Source of the DNA: Chloroflexota bacterium
GTDB taxonomy: Bacteria; Chloroflexota; Dormibacteria; Dormibacterales; Dormibacteraceae
Assembly: GCA_005880795.1 (NCBI GenBank)
Contig: VBGP01000127.1
Span: 1 to 35,367, forward strand
Length of the DNA stretch: 35,367 nucleotides
Reading direction: 5' to 3'
Below the pieces are notes generated by a model. That model did not search any database. It worked only from the letters and a program-made list of their open reading frames with translations, and was not told the origin of the DNA. The translations under genes were made by a program, and so were the position numbers. Shown here in pieces: positions 18,263 to 34,352 of the stretch. Numbering within the stretch: the first letter of the stretch is position 1; each line of letters starts with the position of its first letter.

Positions 18263-18338
18263 TGGAGCGGGCGACCGGCCTCGAACCGGCTACCTCAACC
18301 TTGGGAAGGTTGCGCTCTACCAGGTGAGCTACGCCCGC
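18263..18338 (-). tRNA. tRNA-Gly (anticodon CCC)
   Basis: On the minus strand GCGGGCG (18338-18332) pairs with CGCCCGC (18273-18267), followed by T and an encoded CCA (18265-18263). The D arm is GCTC-ACCTGGTA-GAGC, the anticodon arm is CAACC-TTCCCAA-GGTTG giving anticodon CCC, and the T arm is GCCGG-TTCGAGG-CCGGT. Length is 76 nt with CCA. It begins 17 nt after the stop of the pyrophosphorylase/mutase fusion. Confidence 0.96.
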
Positions 18339-31792: not shown

Positions 31793-31876
31793 GTTGTCTA
31801 TCGTCGCAGTCTTTCAGAGGTCGCTCAAGGTCATCATCAGCGCGACCTCAGCAGAAATTTCCACAACCCTCGCTGA

Positions 31877-31926
31877 AAAAAAATATTCTCGAACCATTGA
31901 CGTGAGAGGGGTTCATCGGGTATCAC
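31877..31926 (+). promoter_or_regulatory. Promoter with A-rich upstream element
   Basis: TTGACG (31897-31902) and TATCAC (31921-31926) are spaced by 18 nt. An A/T-rich stretch (run of eight A then TATTCTC) lies directly upstream, like an UP element. Transcription would start near 31933 and run through the leader to the terminator at 32293-32329. Confidence 0.6.
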
Positions 31927-31932
31927 AACACC

Positions 31933-32180
31933 TTGTATGGCGATGCGACTCGTGGTTGCCACCACAGAGGCAACGGACCCGACGCGAGAAAGCGGACCAT
32001 TTTCGACATCCGCCAACGTCTCGGAGTTCTCATCATCGAGGATCCGCGGCGAAGCCCGTGGGGTTGCAGAGGAGGTACGTGTAGGAGCGAATCCTGTCCA
32101 CGACTCACCACCACATGGAACCCGCCAAACCGATGGAACCTATCGGGTCCATATCTTTAGGAAGAGGAGGTAATTGCATT
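31933..32180 (+). ncRNA. Structured leader or small RNA ahead of the Lys/Ala peptide
   Basis: About 250 nt with no convincing gene. Two mutually exclusive hairpins near the 5' end (GTGGT-tgcc-ACCAC and GTTGCC-accacaga-GGCAAC), a CGTGG/CCACG helix near 32057-32102 enclosing AGGA-gcgaa-TCCT, and a 9-bp stem with one bulged A (32115-32124 with 32144-32152) just before the ribosome binding site suggest a folded RNA. AGAGGAGGTA occurs twice, at 32068-32077 and at the real ribosome binding site 32163-32172; the first copy is followed by GTG TAG. It matches no riboswitch, tmRNA, 4.5S RNA or 6S RNA that I can recognise. Confidence 0.45.
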
Positions 32181-32249
32181 ATGGCTAAGAAGAAGGCTGC
32201 CAAGAAGCCGGCCAAGAAAGCCGCCAAGAAGACCTCGAAGAAGAAGTAG
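32181..32249 (+). CDS. 22-residue Lys/Ala-rich basic peptide
   Basis: Encodes 22 residues beginning MAKKKAAKKPAKKAAKK and ending in three lysines; thirteen of 22 residues are Lys, with Ala, one Pro, Thr and Ser. The composition is that of histone-H1 or HU-tail AKKPAKK repeats, here free-standing rather than fused to a domain. AGGAGG lies 10 nt before the ATG, and TAG TAA stops are in tandem. A strong terminator follows at 32293. Likely a nucleic-acid- or ribosome-associated peptide; a very small ribosomal protein is an alternative. The role is inference from charge only. It is too short for usual gene finders. Confidence 0.75.
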   Translation: MAKKKAAKKPAKKAAKKTSKKK

Positions 32250-32292
32250 TAAGACACTTCTCTTCAATCGTCGTTTCGTAAGTCCGTCACGC

Positions 32293-32329
32293 GCCGGGGT
32301 TCTGTGGAGCCCCGGCCCTCTTTTTTTTT
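32293..32329 (+). terminator. Strong Rho-independent terminator
   Basis: GCCGGGG (32293-32299) pairs with CCCCGGC (32310-32316), followed after a few bases by nine T residues (32321-32329). It ends the leader/peptide transcript. Confidence 0.92.
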
Positions 32330-32340
32330 ACGCTACTGCT

Positions 32341-32376
32341 CCTCCCCATTTATGGGGAGGTGGCGGGCGAAGCCCG
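32341..32376. repeat. REP-like double palindrome
   Basis: CCTCCCCAT-tt-ATGGGGAGG (32341-32360, 9-bp perfect stem) is followed directly by CGGGC-gaa-GCCCG (32364-32376) and then ACGGAGGGG. This two-hairpin unit has the look of dispersed extragenic palindromes common in high-GC genomes. A partly similar CCCCATATGGGGAG lies at 622-635. The rest of 32377-32433 shows nothing notable. Confidence 0.55.
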
Positions 32377-32433
32377 ACGGAGGGGCTGACCTATACCCGA
32401 AAAGACGCCACATATAAGGAAGGCCAACCCACT

Positions 32434-32462
32434 TGACATACGAACATTCGTTCGCTATGGTC
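32434..32462 (+). promoter_or_regulatory. SOS promoter with LexA box
   Basis: A near-consensus promoter, TTGACA (32434-32439) with 17 nt to TATGGT (32457-32462). The spacer is filled by CGAACATTCGTTCG (32442-32455), a perfect CGAAC-N4-GTTCG inverted repeat matching the Gram-positive LexA (DinR) operator. Bound LexA would block both promoter elements, so the downstream imuA-imuB pair should be induced by DNA damage. Confidence 0.9.
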
Positions 32463-32517
32463 AGTGTCGCCTCCTCTCCAGCCCTGCATCGCTCTCATCG
32501 AGGCACCCCATTGAAAG

Positions 32518-33267
32518 ATGCAGGCAGAAAAGCTTGAACTTGCCATTGACTCGATTCGCGTCCGCTTCGGCAGCCAGGCACTGACCCGGGCGGCCGAGCT
32601 GCCGCCATCCCAGCCGTGGTCGAGCAGAACACCGGTCGACCGCCTCACCGGCATCGCAGGCCTGCCGCGAGGCCGTCTCGCGCTGTTCACCGGGAACGGA
32701 ACGTGCGGCAAGCTCACGCTCGCGCTGGCACTGCTTGCCAATGCGACCCATGAGTTCGCGCACGCGATCGTGATCGACGGCGGCGGATTCGACACCTTGA
32801 GCCTCCTTCCCTTTTCCCCGGAGCTTGGCGCGCTGACTGTGGTCAGTGCGCCGGCTCCCGAAATCGCTGGCGAGGCGGCGTCTGCTCTCGCGCGCGCCGG
32901 CGTCGGGTTTCTTCTTTTGATGTGTGAGCTCCCCGAGCACTGGCTCGGGCCGCTGGAGTCCGGAGCCAGTCGCTCTGGGACGGTGCTCGTTGCGGTCGTC
33001 GACGCGCCGAACCGCGCGCTCGCCCATGCGTCGAGCTTCAGTCTTGGGTTCTCACGTCGCGATTGGATCTGGGAACGCGGCCAGATGGTTGGTCTTCGAG
33101 CCTCGGCGCGGTGCGTGAAAAACCGCGTGGCACCGCCGCTGGGCGAGGCCGAGCTCGAGATTCGCTATCCGCTCGGCAATCGACAGCTCTCGGATTACCA
33201 CGCATCGGTCGCCGAGGTGCCGTCTCCGTTTGAAGAGTTGTCGCGATGCGAATCTGCTGTGGTCTGA
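32518..33267 (+). CDS. imuA: ImuA-like RecA-fold protein of the SOS mutasome
   Basis: A 249-aa RecA/SulA-like protein. It has an N-terminal helix (IDSIRVRFGSQALTRAAEL), a Walker-A-like loop GNGTCGKLTLALAL near residues 59-72, and a Walker-B-like strand AHAIVIDGGGF. It lacks an obvious helicase or DNA-binding C-terminus of full RecA. In other bacteria ImuA or ImuA' works with ImuB and DnaE2 in error-prone translesion synthesis. The LexA-boxed promoter and the overlapping ImuB-like gene support this role. ATG at 32518 follows a weak GAAAG site about 50 nt after the predicted transcription start. Similarity is recognised from context and fold, so the name is less sure than for ImuB. Confidence 0.78.
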   Translation: MQAEKLELAIDSIRVRFGSQALTRAAELPPSQPWSSRTPVDRLTGIAGLPRGRLALFTGNGTCGKLTLALALLANATHEFAHAIVIDGGGFDTLSLLPFSPELGALTVVSAPAPEIAGEAASALARAGVGFLLLMCELPEHWLGPLESGASRSGTVLVAVVDAPNRALAHASSFSLGFSRRDWIWERGQMVGLRASARCVKNRVAPPLGEAELEIRYPLGNRQLSDYHASVAEVPSPFEELSRCESAVV

Positions 33268-34352
33268 CCGGCCACCTGGAGCTGGCGCGCCGGCCAGACC
33301 TCTATGGCCAGCCCGTCATCGTCGGGCGCTGGGACGAGCATGTTGTCGCGGCGTCCGAAGAGACGTTGCCTTTCGGTGTGATCACAGGCATGGCGCTTCG
33401 CCAGGCGGAGCACCTTTGTCCACAGGCGATCTTCGTCCTGCCGGACGAGGAAGCGACCGCCCGGATTCGCGAGCTGATCTCATCGGCTCTCTACGATCTC
33501 GCGCCGGTGGTCGATGTACGCGACGAGGGAATTGCGTGGCTCGACATCAGTGGAGTGGCGACCGCCGGATTGTCAATCCGCAACGCACGTCACCGCTTGT
33601 TGAAGGCGATCGGCCGCGAACCCAGACTCGGACTGGCTCCGGGTCCTTTCTCGGCACGACTCGCGGCGGCTCGTGCGCGACCCGGCCGCTTGTTGCGCAT
33701 CGCAGACGCAGGCGAGTTCCTTGCCCCTCTTCCCTCTCGCGAGCTGCCTCTCGACGCCGAAAAGCTCGAGCGACTCGACCTTCTCGGCTTGCGCTCGCTT
33801 GGGGCGGTGGCTTCGATCGGCCCTCGAGAGATGGAGAGCCAGCTCGGTCACGAGGGCCGGCGCGCGGTTCTGCTCGCACGGGGTCTCGAACCGGATCAGC
33901 TCGTGGCGTGGCGCCCTCCTCTGTTCACGAGCGCACACCGGCAGTTCGGAGAGCCTGTGGAAGATCGAGAGGCGCTCCTTTTTGTCGGGCGGGCACTGTG
34001 CGGCGACCTGGCAGACGAGCTCGGGCTGCGTGGCGCGGGCGCCAAGCACGTCCGGGTGCGGCTTGAAGTCGAATCAGGCGCGCCCGAAACTCGCGAGTCG
34101 ATCGTCCGCCATCCCCTCAGCAGCGCCGCCGAGCTGTTCGGGCTCATCGGGTCATGGATCAAGGAATGGCAGCCGCGCGCGCCGATCACCGAGCTGTGGA
34201 TCGAGCTGCCGGTGCTAGAAGGTGCCGGCAGGCGTCAGCTGAGGTTGTGGGCGGGCGGTGACGGATCGAGCGAAGAGGTCACGGCGGCTCTGGAGCGATT
34301 ACAGGAACGCTTCGGCGAGGGTTTCGTTCAGAAGCAGCCGTTTGCCGGATAG
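33246..34352 (+). CDS. imuB: ImuB-like Y-family polymerase homologue, catalytically altered
   Basis: A 368-aa protein with Y-family (DinB-like) polymerase organisation: palm/fingers with ELARRPDLYGQPVIVGRWDE, VITGMALRQAEHLCPQAIFV, the SIDE-like VDVRDEGIAWLDISG, a helix-hairpin-helix-like LERLDLLGLRSLGAVASIG and a little-finger region to the C-terminus. The first catalytic Asp motif (DMDxF in active enzymes) is replaced by RICCGLTG, so it is probably a non-catalytic ImuB that recruits the clamp and DnaE2. No dnaE2 is in this window. The ATG at 33246 lies within imuA (22-bp overlap), indicating translational coupling. The 3' end overlaps the convergent lipoprotein gene by 25 bp. Confidence 0.86.
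   Translation: MRICCGLTGHLELARRPDLYGQPVIVGRWDEHVVAASEETLPFGVITGMALRQAEHLCPQAIFVLPDEEATARIRELISSALYDLAPVVDVRDEGIAWLDISGVATAGLSIRNARHRLLKAIGREPRLGLAPGPFSARLAAARARPGRLLRIADAGEFLAPLPSRELPLDAEKLERLDLLGLRSLGAVASIGPREMESQLGHEGRRAVLLARGLEPDQLVAWRPPLFTSAHRQFGEPVEDREALLFVGRALCGDLADELGLRGAGAKHVRVRLEVESGAPETRESIVRHPLSSAAELFGLIGSWIKEWQPRAPITELWIELPVLEGAGRRQLRLWAGGDGSSEEVTAALERLQERFGEGFVQKQPFAG

Follow-up and report, generated by a model that had tools for sequence, protein, structure and literature searches.

Can an open reading frame (ORF) of 22 residues, made of little but Lys and Ala, be a gene in its own right, and what would its product do in the cell? The question arises from MAKKKAAKKPAKKAAKKTSKKK, encoded at 32181..32249 (+ strand) of the 35,367-nt stretch of DNA analyzed here, from a soil bacterium of the class Dormibacteria, Chloroflexota (hereafter, the window; source genome assembly of 3.2 Mb in 217 contigs). 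The ORF starts with ATG at 32181, 10 nt downstream of a ribosome-binding site (RBS), AGGAGG (32165..32170, +), and closes with TAG at 32247–32249 followed by TAA. Besides Met, its product contains only K, A, P, T, and S (including 12 K, 6 A, and 1 P among the 22 residues). A sequence-only reading of the window had taken the ORF for a free-standing Lys/Ala peptide gene with a clear AGGAGG site, tandem stops, its own promoter, and a textbook terminator. Comparison with relatives bears out the gene, whose frame is conserved with no attached domain, and the RBS, which is kept in all homologs; the tandem stops are present here, whereas most relatives have a single TAA.

The reading frame is kept in every homolog of the ORF, indels between species comprise whole codons, and the peptide ranges from 20 to 27 aa. 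Substitutions are confined to Lys, Ala, Pro, Ser, and Thr, with Val, Arg, or Gly rare. Synonymous changes account for 11 of the 13 substitutions seen in the genus, where the null predicts 3.85 (P<5e-5), and for 13/15 and 8/9 in two further groups. The 33 orthologs use AAG for 393 lysines and AAA for one, compared to 18% AAA in the genes of the window. Using a pattern that combines the RBS with the ORF, we obtained 33 forward matches in 400 genomes of the phylum and none with the reversed-pattern control. A chance ORF is ruled out by the synonymous bias together with this control. Conservation of the RNA alone, which the sequence-only reading had set beforehand against conservation of the frame, is ruled out by the synonymous-substitution test. 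On this comparative evidence, 32181..32249 is a real, hitherto unannotated gene under coding selection, and the synonymous bias, the whole-codon indels, and the AAG preference together strongly imply that MAKKKAAKKPAKKAAKKTSKKK is translated. Searches of Pfam, NCBIfam, and the PDB sequences returned nothing for the peptide, and a profile built on its family was too weak for useful searching.

The promoter foreseen by the sequence-only reading exists, but it lies ~280 nt upstream of the ATG (~210 nt in copies without a ~65-nt block) and not beside the ORF. It comprises TTGACG, a 17-nt spacer, and GTATCA (31897..31925, +), of which TTGAC and GTATC are conserved and the spacer sequence is variable; it is known from this conservation, and a consensus promoter scanner does not list it. 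A run of eight A (31876..31883, +), present as an A run in all aligned relatives, may serve as an UP element. With transcription estimated to start at ~31932, a leader of ~245 nt separates the promoter from the ORF. Downstream, an intrinsic terminator, GCCGGGGTTCTGTGGAGCCCCGGC plus a T run, occupies 32293..32329 (+), with the stem-loop at 32293–32316 preceding the T run. The terminator was called textbook, and its stem is indeed conserved in relatives; the scanner result (1 found vs 1.1 expected by chance) is not significant alone. The strong RBS, the promoter-like boxes with an A-tract, and the AAG-only lysine usage are consistent with high expression.

In the alignment of relatives, the leader, which the sequence-only reading had not described, equals the ORF in conservation, and its core is conserved to at least the same degree. 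This core (31932..32070, +) is recognized by a covariance model, R1, at 162 bits in cmsearch and shows covariation. Nested helices P0–P3 are supported by RNAalifold and direct pair counting: P0 (ATGG/CCAT) encloses P1 (CTCGTG/CGCGAG) and P2 (GTTGCC/GGCAAC) at 31937..32000 (+), with 97–99% of cells paired, compensatory changes, and an invariant P2 loop, ACCACAGA, and P3 follows at 32017..32051 (+), where 6/12 pairs are changed on both sides. Standard pairs fill 97.4% of the pair cells in an alignment of 26 leaders, and two-sided changes affect 6 pairs vs 1.3 in shuffles. When diverged paralogs are included, the count rises to 12 pairs vs 2.8 in shuffles (slid controls ≤8), in an alignment that was fitted to the covariance model and leans towards it. 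An open frame of 78 aa runs through this region from near the estimated transcription start (MAMRLVVATTEATDPTR..., 31937–32173). As a gene it was rejected: relatives share the start, yet several of them interrupt the frame or end it prematurely, and the conservation there is therefore read as that of an RNA.

Closer to the ORF, GGACCCGA (31975..31982, +) and TCGGGTCC (32143..32150, +; 14 nt before the RBS) are the proposed 5′ and 3′ arms of a long-range helix. With 97.9% of cells paired and zero two-sided changes, the alignment is compatible with this helix but does not prove it. Paralogs carry a local hairpin directly before the RBS, with different self-complementary arms (e.g., CCCGACC/GGTCGGG, GCGCCA/TGGCGC), which makes a helix of some kind close to the RBS plausible, if unproven. 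No Rfam 15 family reaches its gathering score at the locus or the leader, the only resemblance being a weak, below-threshold L20_leader match over the terminator. The covariance model finds the leader in 29/42 genomes of the window's family and nowhere else (110 genomes of the class searched), and each of its copies (34/34) stands ahead of a K/A ORF. Three paralogs (L180–L182) keep the ORF and the RBS-proximal hairpin, and their leader core is unrecognized by the model. The pattern of pairing marks the leader as a structured RNA, one absent from Rfam; like the cis-regulatory leaders in that database (e.g., ribosomal-protein leaders), it is a conserved covarying 5′ structure tied to one gene.

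Within the window's Dormibacteria family, a 276-nt query of the locus matched 31/42 genomes, and the search of relatives for the same small frame, which the sequence-only reading had recommended, recovered the RBS-plus-ORF pattern in 32/42, with the same AGGAGG site and terminator. Some genera have an alpha/beta hydrolase gene on the upstream side, and others a different gene; on the downstream side, about half have imuA, and the remainder an oxidoreductase or some other gene. Additional copies are either arranged in tandem (L017, L027) or placed at other sites of the genome (L180–L185, L187, L188). Because neighbour genes vary and copies are both tandem and dispersed, the promoter-leader-ORF-terminator unit is self-contained and, as judged from these comparisons, autonomous. 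In the window, an imuA-like/imuB-like pair lies at 32518–33267 and 33246–34352, and ahead of it is a TTGACA-N17-TATGGT promoter with a LexA-like palindrome, CGAACATTCGTTCG (32441–32454), inside; similar GAAC-GTTC boxes precede imuA in relatives. The window also contains a bacterial class A RNase P RNA (689–1068, −) and a tRNA gene (18266–18338, −).

HU/IHF (PF00216) was undetectable in 41/42 genomes of the window's family, the source genome and all 19 high-quality genomes among them, in a search that detected the domain in 9/14 control genomes. Outside the family, 62/68 genomes of the class have HU or a divergent relative. A hidden divergent HU was considered and rejected: a class-specific profile that included the divergent Dormibacteria HU-like proteins gave a single intact copy in the family genomes, in G019, and a match in G023 (E=1e-4) that contains stop codons. 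Nor does the loss of HU strictly predict the peptide, given six HU-less genera in which these patterns found no peptide; conversely, HU and the K/A peptide are both present in G019 and G217. With very few evolutionary events and exceptions both ways, the link between HU absence and the K/A peptide is suggestive. The H1-tail-like Lys/Ala pattern noted in the sequence-only reading is evident from the sequence itself, and a pattern search of the 42 family genomes found no K-K-x-A-K-K-x-A-K-K stretch outside the K/A loci. A looser pattern returned a 189-aa basic-tailed protein in the source genome (MAKRKRTSRRSGLVGRAVSAG...; L304, G000:C160:68000-69700, − strand). Its tail is rich in T, R, A, and K, it is kept in G011 and G008, and it is a candidate for another nucleoid protein of this HU-less lineage.

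Unattached mini-genes of this kind, which the sequence-only reading had also not anticipated, occur beyond the family. In family f3, where most genomes have only a divergent HU-like protein, we found the K-rich mini-genes MAAKKKAGGKKKAAKKSSKKK and MATRKKATKKAKKSTRKSR, the latter with a terminator of its own; all 18 of 18 genomes contain at least one of the two site patterns, and in six of them we read out the ORFs. These free ORFs are kept without the leader. The peptide MATRKKATKKAKKSTRKSR (19 aa) is near-identical across f3 genera (L298, L299, L300, L272, L273). Families f2 and f4, in which HU is present, gave nine scattered pattern matches, and the eight that were read proved to be ordinary ORFs or else short frames that lack a K/A run. 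Among named genomes, an exact-pattern scan returned at least 118 stretches (L062–L179). Among the matches listed, 76 are complete ORFs of ≤45 aa (11–45 aa overall, many 11–25 aa) with GGAGG sites, from Acidobacteria (e.g., MATKKKAAKKKKH), Eisenbacteria (e.g., MAAKKKAAKKKATKKKAAKKKK), Rokubacteria, Planctomycetes, Bdellovibrionales, Patescibacteria, DPANN archaea, and others. Terminator-like stems within 150 nt accompany 34 of these 76 listed ORFs vs 0 in shuffled sequences and 8 on the reverse strand. The pattern favours K-rich starts, and the cross-phylum result is therefore taken as recurrence, not homology. A literature search, with subscription papers mostly outside it, returned no report of free-standing bacterial K/A mini-genes.

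What might such a peptide do? The closest known counterparts of the free K/A gene are found in HupB and AlgP, whose K/A tails are joined to a folded domain. The K/A tail of mycobacterial HupB is needed for stable DNA binding (PMC5676037), and the H1-like KPAA tail of AlgP for polyphosphate granule organization (PMC9239181). HupB shares with MAKKKAAKKPAKKAAKKTSKKK a basic, K/A-rich tail composition, but it has a PF00216 domain, whereas the 22-aa peptide has none and the tail is a separate gene. The bacterial H1-like proteins AlgP and Hc1/Hc2 have a Lys/Ala/Pro-rich, low-complexity composition like that of MAKKKAAKKPAKKAAKKTSKKK (PMC9239181). AlgP, however, combines a 124-aa N-terminal domain with a tail of ~195 aa, whereas the K/A protein comprises 22 aa in all, and MAKKKAAKKPAKKAAKKTSKKK has neither a match to these family profiles nor an attached domain. 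Our preferred explanation, to which we would give about an even chance, is an autonomous microprotein gene whose product, a free polycation of the H1 type, acts in trans on DNA, RNA, or both, with its synthesis set by the leader. The conserved promoter would produce a ~390-nt transcript with the structured leader, and the strong ribosome site would direct translation of a Lys/Ala peptide of 20–27 residues and a charge of about +12. The peptide would most likely behave as a free H1-type tail, a disordered polycation, and in this lineage, where HU is undetectable, would neutralize and condense the DNA of the nucleoid, RNA, or both; the leader would most likely govern peptide synthesis, possibly through feedback by binding of the free peptide. 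The reading is favoured by the coding selection, by the retention of the same unit across the family despite changing neighbours, by the covarying leader and its constant pairing with a K/A ORF, by the signals consistent with high expression, and by the resemblance in composition to the attached tails of HupB and AlgP. The scarcity of HU in the family relative to the rest of the class and the free K-rich mini-genes of f3 point the same way, with the reservations on the HU link given above. We infer from these features that the peptide may be abundant, may bind nucleic acids with a function in the nucleoid, and may feed back on its own leader. Against this reading, the genome contains other basic proteins, such as the 189-aa protein described above, and DNA binding by 22 residues may be weak at cellular salt.

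Several other functions would also account for a short, basic product. The smallest ribosomal proteins (bTHX, bL37, bS22) have ~20–45 very basic residues, and the K/A peptide could be a ribosome-associated microprotein of their kind that packs on rRNA, with the leader as an autoregulatory mimic of its rRNA site. This would suit the small size and strongly basic character of the peptide, its short conserved family, the signals compatible with high expression, and a leader structured as in autoregulated ribosomal-protein genes. We nevertheless consider it doubtful: comparison with these proteins, as the sequence-only reading had advised, gave no profile or PDB sequence match, the repetitive K/A peptide of free length differs from a fixed rRNA-fitting extension, and it is not universal even inside the family. 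That the peptide binds polyphosphate and helps to form or space granules, like the AlgP tail, is quite unlikely; the tail is required for normal granules in Pseudomonas (PMC9239181) and a K/A peptide should bind any polyanion, but no polyphosphate gene adjoins the K/A locus.

The strongly structured and highly conserved leader core would fit a regulatory or dual-function RNA as the main product, with the peptide as a minor or regulatory by-product; we regard this as unlikely given the strong coding selection on the ORF, the paralogs that keep the ORF and the RBS-proximal hairpin with an unrecognized leader core, and the leaderless K-rich ORFs of f3. A type I toxin, multiplied intergenically and silenced by an antisense RNA, would match the size, the structured leader, the strong terminator, and the tandem copies. 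Known toxins of this type are mostly hydrophobic, membrane-spanning peptides, a character that the K/A peptide does not have, and the gene is stable in the family, not patchy; a scan for terminators and consensus-type promoters found no antisense terminator-like site in 31800–32600, and we consider this reading very unlikely. An attenuator leader peptide, in which twelve Lys codons respond to charged tRNA-Lys and so govern the terminator ahead of a downstream gene, would explain a Lys-rich short ORF with a terminator directly 3′. However, the gene that lies downstream differs among relatives: it may be imuA, which has a promoter and a LexA-like box of its own, or an oxidoreductase gene, or yet another gene. 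This largely refutes the attenuator idea, which also accounts neither for the long leader nor for the synonymous variation at Ala; it is extremely improbable.

For the polycation reading, a broader proposal can be made, which we advance tentatively and judge possible rather than probable: in the HU-less family, a free, trans-acting 22-residue polycation would perform part of the chromosome packing under the control of its own structured RNA, and unannotated tails of this sort would represent a widespread class of bacterial nucleoid microproteins too small for gene calling. ORFs of such length are usually passed over by gene callers, and free K/A mini-proteins can therefore stay unannotated even though they occur in many phyla with their own signals. 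The covarying leader, an RNA element amenable to testing, may respond to the peptide. If such mini-proteins bind nucleic acids, an H1-type tail would work without a folded domain, and DNA packing may differ in lineages without HU.
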